Source: Pedobacter arcticus A12 (GTDB lineage Bacteria > Bacteroidota > Bacteroidia > Sphingobacteriales > Sphingobacteriaceae). From it: DNA of 64,000 nt. The stretch covers positions 890,299 through 954,298 of the forward strand of contig NZ_JH947125.1 of NCBI RefSeq assembly GCF_000302595.1. The letters are read 5' to 3'. Below, one piece after another: positions 20,100 through 63,163 of the stretch. The position numbers and the translations under genes are program-made. Numbering within the stretch: position 1 is the first letter of the stretch; each line of letters opens with the position of its first letter. Under the pieces are notes generated by a model. That model was given only the letters and a program-made list of their open reading frames with translations. It was not told the DNA's origin and searched no databases.

Positions 20100-20125
20100 T
20101 TTTTATAGTATAGCGTAGTGCGATT

Positions 20126-20306
20126 GGAGTATTGAGTGTTGGTATTGAGATTTGAGTATTGAGAACTTTTAGAAAGTATCAAGATATAAGTATCAAGATC
20201 TCGCTTAATTGAAAATTATAATCTGTTAATTATACTCAACTACATCTTCATCAATTATTCTCATTATTCTTTCAAAAGTTCTACTGTTTCTCAATCCTAA
20301 TACTCC
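20126..20306. repeat. Dispersed inverted-repeat element without an ORF, 'gtattgag' family
   Basis: The left arm (20126-20175) contains repeated GTATTGAG units and GAGAACTTTTAGAAAG; the right arm (20270-20306) reads in reverse as GGAGTATTAGGATTGAG with CAGTAGAACTTTTGAAAG. The exact 19-mer gtattgagaacttttagaa (20156-20174) recurs at 61292-61310 beside the S23 gene. It lies in the ccoP-ccoG gap and has no coding potential. Confidence 0.65.
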
Positions 20307-20320
20307 AAACAAACCACAAA

Positions 20321-20363
20321 ATAAGCAAGTCCTTCTCCTTTGGAGAAGGATTTAGGATGAGGC
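20321..20363. repeat. 43-bp dispersed hairpin repeat, copy 1
   Basis: Contains TCCTTCTCC and GGAGAAGGA arms around a 2-nt loop, inside a 43-bp unit that recurs at 63121-63163 with one base changed in the loop. It ends 2 bp from the ccoP stop codon and could act as a processing or attenuation hairpin in the cbb3 transcript. Confidence 0.8.
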
Positions 20364-58865: not shown

Positions 58866-61271
58866 ATGAAAAGATCAATCAAAAAAGTAGCAGTACTGGG
58901 ATCCGGAATTATGGGCTCTCGGATCGCTTGTCACTTTGCAAATATTGGAGTAGAAGTTTTGCTTTTGGATATCGTACCAAAAGAATTAAATGATAAAGAG
59001 CAAGCGAAAGGTTTAACCTTAGCTAGTCCATTGGTGCGCAACAGAATTGTAAACGATGCTTTAATATTCGCTGCAAAATCTAGTCCTTCACCGGTTTATA
59101 ACAAAGAAGTTTTAAATAAAATAAAGACTGGGAATTTTGAAGACAACATGAAAGATATTGCCAGTTGCGACTGGACGATTGAGGTTGTAGTTGAAAATTT
59201 AAAAATAAAAAAGATTGTTTACGATCAAGTAGAGCAGTTTAGAAGACCTGGGACCTTAATCACCTCAAATACTTCGGGAATTCCGATTCATTTAATGGCA
59301 GAAGGCCGTTCAGATGATTTTAAAAAGTATTTCTGCGGAACGCATTTTTTTAATCCACCACGTTATTTACGTTTATTAGAGATTATCCCAACACCAGATA
59401 CCGACAAAGAAATCATTAATTTCTTAATGCATTATGGAGATAAATTTTTAGGTAAAACTACAGTTTTATGTAAGGATACTCCGGCTTTTATCGCAAATAG
59501 AGTCGGCGTTTATTCTATCATGGCATTATTGCATTTGGTAGAAAAAATGGATCTAACGGTTGAAGAAGTAGATAAATTTACCGGTCCAGCTTTAGGCCGA
59601 CCAAAATCTGCTACTTTCCGTACTACGGATGTTGTTGGTTTGGATACCATGATTAATGTAGCCAATGGTTTGTCTGAAAATGCACCTAACGACGAGCAAA
59701 AAGAAGTTTTTGTTTTGCCGGATTATGTAAAGAAAATGCAGGAGAACAAATGGCTGGGTGATAAAACTGGTCAGGGTTTCTATAAAAAAACAAAAGATAA
59801 AGAGGGTAAAACAGAGATTTTAGCTTTAGACTTAAAAACTTTAGAATATCGTCCACAAAATAAAATAAAATCAGCGACGCTTGATGCGACAAAGCCTATA
59901 GAAAATCTGCGTGAACGAATGAAGGTTTACGCGGCCGGAAAAGATAAAGCAGCAGAGTTTTTCAGAGTTTCTTTTTCAGGATTGTTTGAATATGTGTCGA
60001 ACAGAATTCCAGAAATTTCTGATGAAACATATCGTATTGACGATGCCATGCGAGCTGGTTTTGGCTGGGAATTAGGCCCATTTGAAGTTTGGGATGCTTT
60101 AGGAGTGAAAGAAGGAGTGGAGATGATGAAAGCCAATGGCAAAACTCCAGAAAAATGGATAACCGAGATGCTGGAAGCGGGAAATACTTCATTTTATAAA
60201 ATAGAAAACGGCAACAAAACCTATTACGATATCCCATCAAAATCTTACAAAGCAGTTCCTGGTCAGGATGCGTTTATTGTTTTGGATAACATTAGAGCGA
60301 GTAAAACCATTTGGAAGAACTCAGGAACTACCTTAACTGACTTAGGCGACGGTATTTTAAACTTAGAATTCCATACCAAAATGAACACTATCGGTGGCGA
60401 AGTTTTAGCTGGAATTAACAAAGCCATTGACATTGCCGAGAAAGATTACCGTGGTTTAGTCATAGGTAATGATGGAACCAATTTCTCTGCCGGAGCAAAC
60501 GTGGGGATGATTTTTATGATGGCGGTTGAGCAGGAATGGGACGAGGTGAATATGGCAATTAAAATGTTTCAAAATACTTCCATGCGGATTCGTTATTCTT
60601 CCATCCCAGTGGTAGTTGCACCACACAATTTGACTTTAGGCGGTGGTTGCGAGTTTGCTTTACATGCCGATCACGTTCAGCTAAATGCAGAAACTTATAT
60701 GGGTTTGGTTGAGTTTGGCGTCGGGTTAATTCCTGGTGGCGGCGGAACCAAAGAAATGACTTTGAGAGCATCAGACGAATTCCATGCGGAACAAATTGAG
60801 CAAAACGTGTTAAAAGAAAAGTTTTTGACGATTGCAATGGCAAAAGTTTCTACATCAGCTTTAGAAGCATATGATTTAGGTTATTTATTGAAAGATAAGT
60901 TCTCTATTTCGATGAATAGAAGTAGGCTTATCGCCGATGCAAAAGAGAAAGCTTTAGAACTCGCTAACGCAGGATATACCCAACCAGTGCGGAGAAGCGA
61001 TATCAAAGTTCTTGGTAAATACGGATTAGGGATGGTTTACGCCGGAGCAAACACCATGCGTTCTGGAAACTACATTTCGGACCACGACCAAAAAATCTCT
61101 CAGAAATTAGGTTACGTAATGTGCGGAGGAGATTTATCTGCACCAACTTTAGTGACTGAACAATATTTATTGGATTTAGAGAGAGAGGCATTTTTGAGTT
61201 TGTGTGGAGAGAAGAAAACATTGGAGAGAATTCAGAGTATCATAACTAAGGGAAAGCCGTTGCGTAATTAG
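58866..61271 (+). CDS. fadN: 3-hydroxyacyl-CoA dehydrogenase/enoyl-CoA hydratase (FadN-type)
   Basis: 801 residues. The N-terminal 3-hydroxyacyl-CoA dehydrogenase half has VAVLGSGIMGSRIACHFANIG (about 8-28) and SNTSGIPIHLMAEG, FCGTHFFNPPRYLRLLEIIP and the substrate-binding part. The C-terminal enoyl-CoA hydratase/isomerase half holds GTNFSAGANVGMIF, LGGGCEFALHADHVQ and GLIPGGGGTKE. This order (dehydrogenase first) is as in Bacillus FadN. It does two steps of beta-oxidation, with thiolase and acyl-CoA dehydrogenase downstream, matching a fadN-fadA-fadE arrangement. Confidence 0.93.
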   Translation: MKRSIKKVAVLGSGIMGSRIACHFANIGVEVLLLDIVPKELNDKEQAKGLTLASPLVRNRIVNDALIFAAKSSPSPVYNKEVLNKIKTGNFEDNMKDIASCDWTIEVVVENLKIKKIVYDQVEQFRRPGTLITSNTSGIPIHLMAEGRSDDFKKYFCGTHFFNPPRYLRLLEIIPTPDTDKEIINFLMHYGDKFLGKTTVLCKDTPAFIANRVGVYSIMALLHLVEKMDLTVEEVDKFTGPALGRPKSATFRTTDVVGLDTMINVANGLSENAPNDEQKEVFVLPDYVKKMQENKWLGDKTGQGFYKKTKDKEGKTEILALDLKTLEYRPQNKIKSATLDATKPIENLRERMKVYAAGKDKAAEFFRVSFSGLFEYVSNRIPEISDETYRIDDAMRAGFGWELGPFEVWDALGVKEGVEMMKANGKTPEKWITEMLEAGNTSFYKIENGNKTYYDIPSKSYKAVPGQDAFIVLDNIRASKTIWKNSGTTLTDLGDGILNLEFHTKMNTIGGEVLAGINKAIDIAEKDYRGLVIGNDGTNFSAGANVGMIFMMAVEQEWDEVNMAIKMFQNTSMRIRYSSIPVVVAPHNLTLGGGCEFALHADHVQLNAETYMGLVEFGVGLIPGGGGTKEMTLRASDEFHAEQIEQNVLKEKFLTIAMAKVSTSALEAYDLGYLLKDKFSISMNRSRLIADAKEKALELANAGYTQPVRRSDIKVLGKYGLGMVYAGANTMRSGNYISDHDQKISQKLGYVMCGGDLSAPTLVTEQYLLDLEREAFLSLCGEKKTLERIQSIITKGKPLRN

Positions 61272-61281
61272 TAGTGAGATA

Positions 61282-61310
61282 TGAGTATTGGGTATTGAGA
61301 ACTTTTAGAA
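61282..61310. repeat. 'gtattgag' repeat, left flank of the S23 gene
   Basis: Contains gtattgagaacttttagaa, exactly as at 20156-20174. It lies 10 bp after the fadN stop and 18 bp before the four-helix-bundle gene. Confidence 0.7.
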
Positions 61311-61327
61311 TTGATTAAAGAAATAAA

Positions 61328-61681
61328 ATGCACAACATTAAGGAATTGAAAATCTGGAATAAAGCAATGGATTTAGCGGTTAAAGTTTATGAACTGTCTG
61401 CTAAGTTTCCTTCAGATGAAAGATTCGGTTTAACCTCGCAAGTGAGAAGATGTGCAGTTTCGATTCCATCAAATATTTCAGAAGGAGCTGGAAGAAATAC
61501 AAAAGGTGAATTTAAGCAATTTTTAGGAATCGCAAATGGTTCAGCTTACGAATTACAAACTCAACTCATTATTGCGCATAAGTTGAATTTCATTGATGAA
61601 AGCTCTACTAATGAGATTTTGGAAAGCATTGATGAAATTCAGAAAATGAATTATAGACTTCAATTATCATTAAGTAAATAG
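61328..61681 (+). CDS. Four-helix-bundle protein of the S23 (23S rRNA intervening sequence) family
   Basis: 117 residues: IKELKIWNKAMDLAVKVYELSAKFPSDERFGLTSQVRRCAVSIPSNISEGAGRNTKGEFKQFLGIANGSAYELQTQL is the diagnostic core (Ile-Pro-Asn-Ile-SEG and GSxxELxTQL). The family was first seen in insertions within 23S rRNA genes and is related to the Avd accessory protein of diversity-generating retroelements. Here it has no rRNA and no reverse transcriptase near. It splits the fadN-fadA pair and is flanked by copies of a dispersed repeat. Function unknown. Confidence 0.9.
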   Translation: MHNIKELKIWNKAMDLAVKVYELSAKFPSDERFGLTSQVRRCAVSIPSNISEGAGRNTKGEFKQFLGIANGSAYELQTQLIIAHKLNFIDESSTNEILESIDEIQKMNYRLQLSLSK

Positions 61682-61696
61682 AATATAGTAATACGA

Positions 61697-61775
61697 TTTG
61701 AGTATTGGTTAACGAGAACTTTTAAAATGGGAATAAGCAAGTCATCTCAATACTCAATACGCTCTACTCAATACT
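61697..61775. repeat. 'gtattgag' repeat, right flank of the S23 gene, in both orientations
   Basis: TTTGAGTATTGGTTAAC and GAGAACTTTTA (61697-61724) repeat the left flank directly with changes; TCTCAATACTCAATACG and CTCTACTCAATACT (61745-61775) repeat it inverted. It ends 13 bp before the thiolase start. Confidence 0.65.
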
Positions 61776-61788
61776 AAACGAAAAAAAT

Positions 61789-62964
61789 ATGGAAGCATAC
61801 ATCATAGCAGGATACAGAACAGCAGTTGGGAAAGCGCCAAGAGGTGTTTTTCGTTTCACACGGGCAGACGATTTAGCAACAGACGTTATTAAAGCATTAA
61901 TCGCATCACTCCCAAACCTCGATCCAACTCAAATCGACGATGTTATCGTAGGAAATGCTACACCAGAAGCAGAGCAAGGTTTAAACATTGCCCGCATGAT
62001 TTCGTTAATGGCTTTGGATACTGATAAAGTTCCGGGCGTAACTGTTAATCGTTATTGTGCATCAGGTTTGGAAACCATCGCGACAGCCGTAGCTAAAATT
62101 AAAGCTGGAATGGCAGATTGTATTGTTGCCGGTGGGGTAGAAGTAATGAGCGGAATGCCTTTCGGTGGATGGAAAGTGGTTCCAAACCCAGAAGTCGCGG
62201 TAAAAAATCCGGATTGGTATTGGGGAATGGGCTTAACCGCAGAAGCAGTTGCTAAAGAATACAATGTAACTCGCGAAGACCAAGATGAGTTTTCATTCAA
62301 ATCTCACCAAAAAGCAATTGAAGCTATTAAAAACGGTCATCTAAAAGACGGAGTTTTACCAATCACGGTTAAGGAAAACTATTTGGATACCAACATGAAA
62401 AAGAAAACCCGTGAATATGTGGTTGATACCGACGAAGGACCGAGAGCGGATACTTCTTTGGCTGCGTTAGCTAAATTGAAACCTGTTTTTGCAGCCGGAG
62501 GCTCAGTAACAGCGGGGAATTCTTCTCAAACTTCAGACGGTGCTGCTTTTGTTTTAGTGGTTTCAGAAAAAATGTTGAAGCAATTAAATGTAGAGCCTAT
62601 CGCAAGGTTGGTAAGCTATTCCGTTGCAGGTGTTCCTCCACATTTGATGGGAATTGGTCCAATAGAAGCTATACCAAAAGCGTTGAAACAAGCCGGAATG
62701 AGTTTAGATAAAATCGATTTAATCGAGTTGAACGAAGCATTTGCATCACAGTCTTTAGCCGTCATCAGAACCTTAGGTTTAGATAAAGAAAAAGTCAATG
62801 TTAATGGTGGCGCAATAGCCTTAGGCCATCCGCTGGGTTGTACCGGAGCAAAACTATCCGTTCAAATTTTTAACGAATTAAAAAGAACAAATCAAAAATA
62901 TGGAATGGTTACCATGTGCGTAGGTAGCGGACAAGGTGCAGCGGGGATATTTGAGATGTTGTAA
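61789..62964 (+). CDS. fadA: Acetyl-CoA C-acyltransferase (3-ketoacyl-CoA thiolase)
   Basis: 391 residues. The nucleophile is Cys90 in NRYCASGLETIATAVAKI. NEAFASQSLAV, GGAIALGHPLGCTGAK with the catalytic His near 352 and CVGSGQGAAGIF with Cys near 382 follow. It completes beta-oxidation by cleaving 3-ketoacyl-CoA with CoA. Probably co-transcribed with fadN despite the inserted S23 gene, and followed by acyl-CoA dehydrogenase. Confidence 0.95.
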   Translation: MEAYIIAGYRTAVGKAPRGVFRFTRADDLATDVIKALIASLPNLDPTQIDDVIVGNATPEAEQGLNIARMISLMALDTDKVPGVTVNRYCASGLETIATAVAKIKAGMADCIVAGGVEVMSGMPFGGWKVVPNPEVAVKNPDWYWGMGLTAEAVAKEYNVTREDQDEFSFKSHQKAIEAIKNGHLKDGVLPITVKENYLDTNMKKKTREYVVDTDEGPRADTSLAALAKLKPVFAAGGSVTAGNSSQTSDGAAFVLVVSEKMLKQLNVEPIARLVSYSVAGVPPHLMGIGPIEAIPKALKQAGMSLDKIDLIELNEAFASQSLAVIRTLGLDKEKVNVNGGAIALGHPLGCTGAKLSVQIFNELKRTNQKYGMVTMCVGSGQGAAGIFEML

Positions 62965-63120: not shown

Positions 63121-63163
63121 ATAAGCAAGTCCTTCTCCTTCGGAGAAGGATTTAGGATGAGGC
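63121..63163. repeat. 43-bp dispersed hairpin repeat, copy 2
   Basis: Identical to 20321-20363 except one base in the loop (C for T). Its end is 3 bp from the acyl-CoA dehydrogenase ATG, so the repeat's AGGATGAGG forms the leader just upstream of the start codon. Confidence 0.8.

Follow-up and report, generated by a model that had tools for sequence, protein, structure and literature searches.

The locus considered here raises the question of why, in Pedobacter arcticus A12, a gene for an S23 (four-helix-bundle) protein stands between fadN and fadA with repeated sequence on both of its sides, and whether gene and repeats belong together. The sequence-only reading of the window (the whole stretch of DNA analysed, 64,000 nucleotides) had placed the S23 gene between these two genes, and the open reading frames and profile matches bear this out:

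58866-61271, plus strand: fadN-like (FadB/FadN-like) gene, 801 aa, the co-directional upstream neighbour of the S23 gene
61328-61681, plus strand: S23 (four-helix-bundle) gene, 117 aa, matched by the PF05635 and TIGR02436 profiles
61789-62964, plus strand: fadA-like acyltransferase gene, 391 aa, the co-directional downstream neighbour

Between fadN and fadA, the S23 gene is the sole ORF that reaches 60 aa. Its product belongs to the family, with 142.2 bits against PF05635 (curated cut-off 33.8), which is its sole Pfam match above cut-off, and 130.6 bits against TIGR02436 (cut-off 24). The genome has seven PF05635 genes, of which this is the one inside the window. The gene is under purifying selection: a finite dN/dS estimate was obtained for 11 of 15 ortholog pairs and lies at 0.04-0.14, dS being high (0.7-2.7). 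A related four-helix-bundle protein is the DGR accessory protein Avd. However, the window protein stays below the Avd cut-offs (24.5 bits against PF22296, bAvd, cut-off 40; 31.2 bits against NF033474, cut-off 80) and the genome's six RVT_1 matches all fall outside the window, so the locus does not qualify as a DGR. In addition, RVT_1 is without a match in 11 of the 18 genus genomes while S23 is present in all 18, and a reverse-transcriptase origin was rejected as not needed.

The repeats around the gene, and their counterpart elsewhere in the window, are as follows:

61269-61311, plus strand: 5' arm, copy 1, a degenerate array of GTATTGA-type heptads whose inward strand is G-rich (repeat search)
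61686-61728, plus strand: 5' arm, copy 2, in the same orientation as copy 1 and 81% identical to it (repeat search)
61745-61777, minus strand: 3' arm, inverted GTATTGA-type heptads, TCAATAC on the plus strand (repeat search)
61686-61780, no strand: nested complete ORF-less hairpin (arm, AACTTTTA loop, arm), resembling the ORF-less fadN-fadA form of genome G014
20113-20318, no strand: ORF-less hairpin of the GTATTGA word class between ccoG-like and ccoP-like genes, with a 19-mer in common with 61292-61310

The flanks had been read as sharing units in direct and inverted copies. Such pairs were found, one direct (61269-61311 with 61686-61728, 43 nt, 81%) and one inverted (61268-61300 with 61745-61777, 33 nt, 79%), but the unit had been misread and is really a heptad of about 7 nt, GTATTGA. 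The motif GAGAACTTTTA, proposed as the dispersed repeat, failed: the 13-mer TTGAGAACTTTTA has three exact copies in the genome and, with at most one mismatch, 14 places against 17 for its reversed pattern, and a single dispersed repeat around AACTTTTA was therefore rejected. Two tandem GTATTGA words with at most one mismatch occur at 12 places in the genome against two for the reversed control. The stop codon of fadN forms the first bases of the 5' arm, copy 1. The 5' arm thus occurs in two copies, the stretch 61686-61780 being a complete ORF-less hairpin in its own right. The arrays of this S23 copy are degenerate, with a best lag-7 score of 19 of 28, and the 3' arm is the only lag-7 array of the window at this threshold.

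The ORF-less version between ccoP and ccoG was confirmed, the exact 19-mer GTATTGAGAACTTTTAGAA being found at 61292-61310 and 20156-20174 and at no other window site (0 expected from 100 shuffles). The arms of this hairpin lie at 20115-20133 and 20299-20317, and it encloses two AAGTATCAAGAT units (20174-20199) that belong to a different word class, so that classes can occur in combination. Another dispersed palindrome, AAGTCCTTCTCCTTTGGAGAAGGATTTAGGATGAGG, was observed at 20327-20362 and 63127-63162 with one mismatch between the copies; the one adjoins the ccoG-ccoP hairpin and the other sits downstream of fadA, where some relatives carry heptad hairpins.

The seven S23 genes of the genome have flanks that differ by gene, each bracketed by inverted quasi-repeats (GTATTGA, AAGTTTA, AGTATCA, GGTCGAT, CAAGAAG and others). 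An arm score was defined by comparing the upstream flank with the reverse-complemented downstream flank, with a threshold of at least 30. With 220-nt flanks, six of the seven genes reach it and one scores 29. As six of the seven carry words other than GTATTGA, no single terminus is shared among S23 genes, and S23 genes elsewhere do lack these flanks as far as the motif is concerned; they do not lack the architecture. In the genus set (62 of 91 entries, comprising 61 S23 genes in 60 stretches; the arm statistics exclude G010-G015 and G017 entirely, together with four genes of G016, three of G008 and one of G002), the threshold is reached by 32/61 same-locus pairs against 29/1200 swapped pairs with 220-nt flanks, and by 31/61 S23 genes (51%) against 5/291 other ORFs of the same stretches (2%) with 200-nt flanks (Fisher p 2e-22); 30 of the 61 loci stay below it. 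Autocorrelation in the genus S23 flanks (91 flanks of at least 40 nt) is 0.412, 0.372 and 0.375 at lags 7, 14 and 21 over a baseline of about 0.30, and the lag-7 value of 0.412±0.011 compares with 0.318 in 240 control intergenic regions. As a set, these flanks show the tandem 7-nt units in intergenic DNA that define STRR-type heptamer repeats. The genus arrays are degenerate and strongly periodic windows are scarcer here, being found in 14/122 S23 flanks against 18/582 other flanks, and lag 7 leads in both.

Beyond the genus, one genome per species was scanned in 84,980 species, which returned at least 575 confirmed relatives, and the best 80 were kept. These best 80 span many bacterial phyla and include one archaeal MAG; 77 of their loci were usable, three being dropped for short flanks. 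Arms of at least 30 bracket 50/77 of these cross-phylum S23 loci (65%, among the best 80 of at least 575) against 11/350 other ORFs (3%), so that the suspected tie between repeat and S23 is general, not local. Arms swapped between loci reach the threshold in 43/1905 cases (2%) and arms compared in direct orientation in 5/77, and 27/77 loci lie below it (again among the best 80 of at least 575). Periodic windows were found in 53/154 cross-phylum S23 flanks (best 80 of at least 575) against 35/700 flanks of other ORFs; their period is 7 nt in 41 of the 53, 8 nt in nine, 9 nt in two and 4 nt in one, and 7 nt in 27 of the 35 controls. Furthermore, in a set of eight named genomes (27 of 45 entries used, 26 usable), arms reach 30 in 16/26 S23 loci against 18/650 swapped pairs; eight of the 26 were already among the cross-phylum 80, and 10 of the 18 new loci reach the threshold.

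Five of 35 records of plasmid-borne S23 genes were read as examples. Inverted arrays of GGGAACA were seen in Nostoc edaphicum, of GGGTGTA in Calothrix brevissima, of a TCAGAAT type partly overlapping the ORF end in Trichormus variabilis and of the 8-nt unit GGGCAGGA in Gemmatirosa, while the plasmid S23 gene of Anabaena sp. 90 (L141, 2995-3363) has inverted GGTGACA/GGGAACA arrays and occupies the cas6-cas4 interval of a type I-D cas operon. A Nostoc S23 gene is bracketed by GGGGAGT-type words. The inverted heptad-array architecture around S23 genes is present in many phyla. A similar S23 protein in Anabaena UHCC 0204 (L419) goes with the word GGTGACA, as in Anabaena sp. 90.

The word itself was compared with the protein in 13773 pairs of loci in different contexts (169 of 170 loci). 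Arm similarity of at least 30 was found in 69/7439 pairs below 40% protein identity, in 9% of 663 pairs at 50-60%, in 30% of 47 pairs at 60-75% and in 11/11 pairs at 75% or more, the last coming from six cyanobacterial loci only. The comparison in opposite orientation stayed low, at most 6%, and the observed difference was reached in 0/2000 permutations; neither pairs nor permutations are corrected for phylogeny. With one tblastx-linked pair removed, arms match in 24 of the 57 pairs with at least 60% identity. Two S23 genes of one genus genome share a word in 2/156 pairs. In the genus no S23 pair in different contexts exceeds 60% identity, so the linkage of protein and word within the genus is largely vertical. 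Arm words tend, before any correction for phylogeny, to track the relatedness of the S23 proteins.

The occupancy of individual sites was followed across genomes. The fadN-fadA site was compared in 15 of the 18 genus genomes, those with a FadA match:

S23 gene with GTATTGA words: G000, G009, G006, G005, G003 and G008 (open), G007 and G017 (broken)
S23 gene of another subfamily (48-51% identity) with GTATCAA words: G016, with arm scores of 19-30 to seven of the others
ORF-less hairpins: G014 (GTATTGA), G002 (AGTATCA), G004, G001 and G015 (AGGAACA)
15-nt spacer: the distant G012, after a 54%-identical FadN, the sole candidate empty site

Directly 3' of fadA, the following forms are found:

ORF-less GTATTGA hairpins: G009, G006, G017 and G003
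ORF-less AGTATCA hairpins: G014 and G002
full S23 gene with AGGAACA words: G004, G001 and G005
other palindromes: G000, G016 and G007

The metH-metF site was compared in 10 of 16 genomes, those with metH found within about 1.5 kb:

S23 gene with AGTATCA words: G000, G016, G008 and G002 (frameshifted)
S23 gene with AGTAGAA words and a further gene before metF: G004 and G007
truncated S23 gene with GTTAG words: G005
ORF-less GTATTGA hairpins: G009 and G017, both with a GTATTGA S23 gene at fadN-fadA (broken in G017)
another palindrome: G006

As full, broken and ORF-less forms and their words differ at the same sites, the fadN-fadA and metH-metF sites turn over. The suggested comparison of fadN-fadA spacing thus yielded full, broken or ORF-less forms in 14 of the 15 genomes, while the candidate empty site is confined to the distant G012. 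ORF-less words often match an S23 gene of the same genome, although this was not seen for G014 and G015. In G009 and G001 the fadN-fadA site has tandem partial duplications. Inspection by eye revealed no target duplication at fadN-fadA or metH-metF; the arms at these sites are degenerate, and a close empty allele was not encountered. Of the proposed mobile unit with full and empty forms, the differing occupancy of the same intercistronic sites by full and ORF-less forms between species speaks for it, while target duplication and directly observed movement are missing.

Counts over whole genomes go in the same direction. GTATTGA pairs number 8-68 per genome where that S23 class is present against 1-31 where it is absent (reversed control 0-3), and AGTATCA places 11-53 against 0-22 (reversed control 0-1 except in G016, which has 20 places against 11 for the control). 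The excess with a matching S23 gene has one-sided p values of 0.003 for GTATTGA and 0.005 for AGTATCA, ignoring phylogeny, and of 0.03 and 0.01 without G010-G013; all word classes were assigned by eye, for G010-G015 and G017 from part of their S23 genes. G005 and G009 have 22 and 10 AGTATCA places though none of their S23 genes has this word. Lag-7 arrays were counted in 72 stretches of 20 kb at chosen, not random, positions, and amount to 23 in 800 kb of nine S23-bearing family genomes against four in 640 kb of seven S23-free genomes (one-sided p 0.001 if arrays are independent), with six against four at lags 5, 8, 10, 11 and 13 together. This excess has the expected direction but is uneven between genomes and depends on the threshold: three of the four arrays in S23-free samples belong to G023, four of the nine S23-bearing genomes (G008, G078, G077 and G039) have none, and the counts become 30 against 7 at the laxer 19 of 28, with at least one array in 5/7 S23-free genomes, and 10 against 1 at 22 of 28. 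An S23 gene (L324), the sole one in the 72 stretches, is located near one of the 23 arrays, in the same stretch.

Two side observations concern copying of another kind. At G000:C4:423398-423694 five AGTATCGAGTATCAAG copies follow each other with a 62-nt spacing, and a sixth 48 nt on, a minisatellite apparently grown from a heptad array. In Calothrix PCC 7103 (G083, L446-L452), direct multi-copy transposition of the element was considered and rejected, as the repeated S23 copies ride as passengers in an insertion sequence of about 2.6 kb, with five copies more than 99% identical and two about 83% over 1.3 kb. This insertion sequence has a CTGCCCT heptamer array near its 3' end, and the ORF upstream of S23 is presumably a piece of an ISL3-type transposase.

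The arrays have a fixed polarity. Among the 112 of 170 loci with an arm score of at least 26, the inward-reading strand has more G than C in 104, more C than G in seven and equal numbers in one, and the two-strand ORF-less AGTATCA sites among the hits listed for five genomes are inward in 20/20, with 58 further sites being one-strand hits. The matched arm has a median of 31 nt (IQR 25-38, 126 loci). The polarity, mismatch, word-protein and co-direction counts include 24 family loci out of 196 matches outside the genus. Arm mismatches taken in the sense RNA comprise 119 of the G-U-compatible type against 161 of the opposite type, and pairing of the sense RNA as the force that keeps the arms alike was rejected as unsupported by any G-U excess. 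The S23 protein had been suggested to act on its RNA or DNA; since the inward arrays at both ends are equivalent and the mismatches do not have the look of RNA pairing, the data lean to recognition of DNA ends.

Several known systems share parts of this architecture. Intervening sequences with an S23 ORF occur in the 23S rRNA of Coxiella and Leptospira. In Coxiella, the intervening sequence has an S23 ORF, inverted arms and direct GACAGAT heptamers before the ORF, whose number varies between strains (PMC4990558). The S23 ORF inside inverted arms is found here too, but the window element lies between two protein genes and not in a helix loop of 23S rRNA, and S23-heptad elements have many word classes and many ORF-less derivatives. 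RAYT/REPIN systems consist of one protein-coding form and many short ORF-less hairpin relatives in intercistronic positions. S23 elements resemble them in having a coding form and intercistronic ORF-less hairpin relatives, but they have no Y1 nuclease, their ends are heptad arrays and the word varies with the protein. The STRRs of Calothrix and Nostoc and the repeats GGGAATC of Xanthomonas, TAACTGA of Beggiatoaceae and GATAGRA of Chloroflexus likewise have a 7-nt unit and are mostly intergenic. Heptamer repeats are described, in the accessible portions of these papers, for Xanthomonas and Nostoc, with 70 and 75 instances of paired convergent sites in Xanthomonas (PMC4692102), for Beggiatoaceae, Cyanobacteria and Bacteroidetes (PMC4679880) and for Chloroflexus (PMC6749651). 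Unlike the arrays described here, they are reported in those portions apart from S23: the words S23 and helix bundle have no match in PMC4692102 and PMC4679880, nor has S23 in PMC6749651. In the open-access literature searched, as far as its accessible text goes, the Coxiella intervening sequence is the one case that links S23 genes to heptamer arrays (PMC4990558).

An explanation has to cover the architecture, the dominant 7-nt period, the inward G-rich strand, the ORF-less relatives with the same word and the turnover of word classes at the same sites, all of which were observed. We regard it as somewhat probable that the S23 gene represents the coding, full form within a family of small elements ended by inverted arrays of a word of about 7 nt, with S23 recognising the end arrays and ORF-less derivatives depending on it. 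The protein would bind the end arrays, each heptad being contacted by one subunit and each arm containing about four to five heptads, and would act as a word-specific end-recognition factor. The S23 relatives PDB 2gsc and 2rld have five chains each, and 2gsc is described in the Coxiella report as a homopentameric toroid (PMC4990558); such five-chain assemblies and arms of four to five heptads would be compatible with each subunit taking one heptad. ORF-less arrays with the word of an S23 protein may be bound by it and spread or maintained in trans, much as REPINs rely on RAYTs, and the cutting or copying enzyme would lie outside the element, as a host or other trans-acting enzyme. Against the element reading it counts that no transfer event, target duplication or clean ancestral empty site was found.

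The chief alternative, an RNA element resembling the rRNA intervening sequences, is one that we consider unlikely. Here the arms would pair in the transcript and be cut by RNase III, and S23 would be an RNA-binding regulator or protector of the processed mRNA, for instance as a TRAP-like ring on the 5'-arm heptads of its own message. The Coxiella intervening sequence has the same parts, namely an S23 ORF, 28-bp inverted arms cut by RNase III and heptamers, and its authors favour the RNA, describing reductive evolution of the S23 ORF and holding the RNA more relevant than the protein (PMC4990558), which counts against the element reading. S23 also lies in sense between two co-directional genes, in 57/61 genus loci against 97/145 control genes and in 50/67 cross-phylum loci with both neighbours seen (among the best 80 of at least 575 relatives) against 58/135 controls; the transcript of the S23 element folds with its ends paired (z -2.5), and AG is enriched in the 5' arm (65% of 7-nt windows, 47% in shuffles), together with TAG and CAG. 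However, the mismatch counts given above go against RNA pairing, the same inward G-rich strand at both ends would not be needed by a reader of the sense RNA only, and for the two ORF-less hairpins of the window, folding beats that of shuffles by only a small margin (z -2.0 and -1.7).

Passive growth, by which slippage and hairpin template switching would make heptamer arrays and keep the arms alike, with S23 as a passenger or a tolerant gene, is in our judgement quite improbable. It would fit the arrays far from S23 and in S23-free genomes, mainly in G023, and the tandem partial duplications of G009 and G001 look like growth by slippage, but it does not account for the bracketing of S23 in many phyla and only rarely of other genes, nor for the dominance of 7 nt, the fixed polarity (104 against 7) and words that track the protein. 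Mobilisation of the element through its terminal hairpins by Y1 transposases of the RAYT type, with S23 as a mere accessory, seems to us very improbable. The hairpin ends, the intercistronic position and the full and ORF-less forms are as in RAYT/REPIN, and one broken S23 gene of G002 has a Y1 gene two genes upstream. Y1_Tnp genes are present in all 18 genus genomes, as this rival needs, and for that very reason their co-occurrence is uninformative; none of the Y1_Tnp matches of the P. arcticus genome falls in the window, and apart from G002 no Y1 gene lies within 5 kb of any listed genus S23 gene. The word variety usual for one Y1 transposase is seemingly far smaller than that among S23 elements. 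The frameshifted S23 gene downstream of this Y1 gene in G002 (L453, G002:C1:799612-801201) has arms with a GTTATCAGTTG-type word of its own S23 subfamily.

Returning to the reading of S23 as the coding form of an element, a wider version may be put forward tentatively, as possible rather than probable. S23 genes and heptamer arrays would be the halves of one widespread two-component element, in which an S23 pentamer would read inverted arrays in a word-specific manner and would propagate them with the help of a host polymerase or nuclease; the unexplained heptamer repeats of cyanobacteria, Xanthomonas, Beggiatoaceae and Bacteroidota would be its ORF-less progeny, and the rRNA intervening sequences would be members that came to lie in rRNA. 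Genes for S23 (four-helix-bundle) proteins have been annotated widely without a known function, and for the spread of heptamer repeats one report, in its accessible part, finds no mechanism evident (PMC4679880). Should every S23 clade read a heptad word of its own, the two puzzles would merge into one that is directly testable, and S23 proteins would be a natural family of modular readers of short repeats. The heptad bracketing of S23 genes in many unrelated bacteria suggests an overlooked family of small gene-plus-repeat elements.
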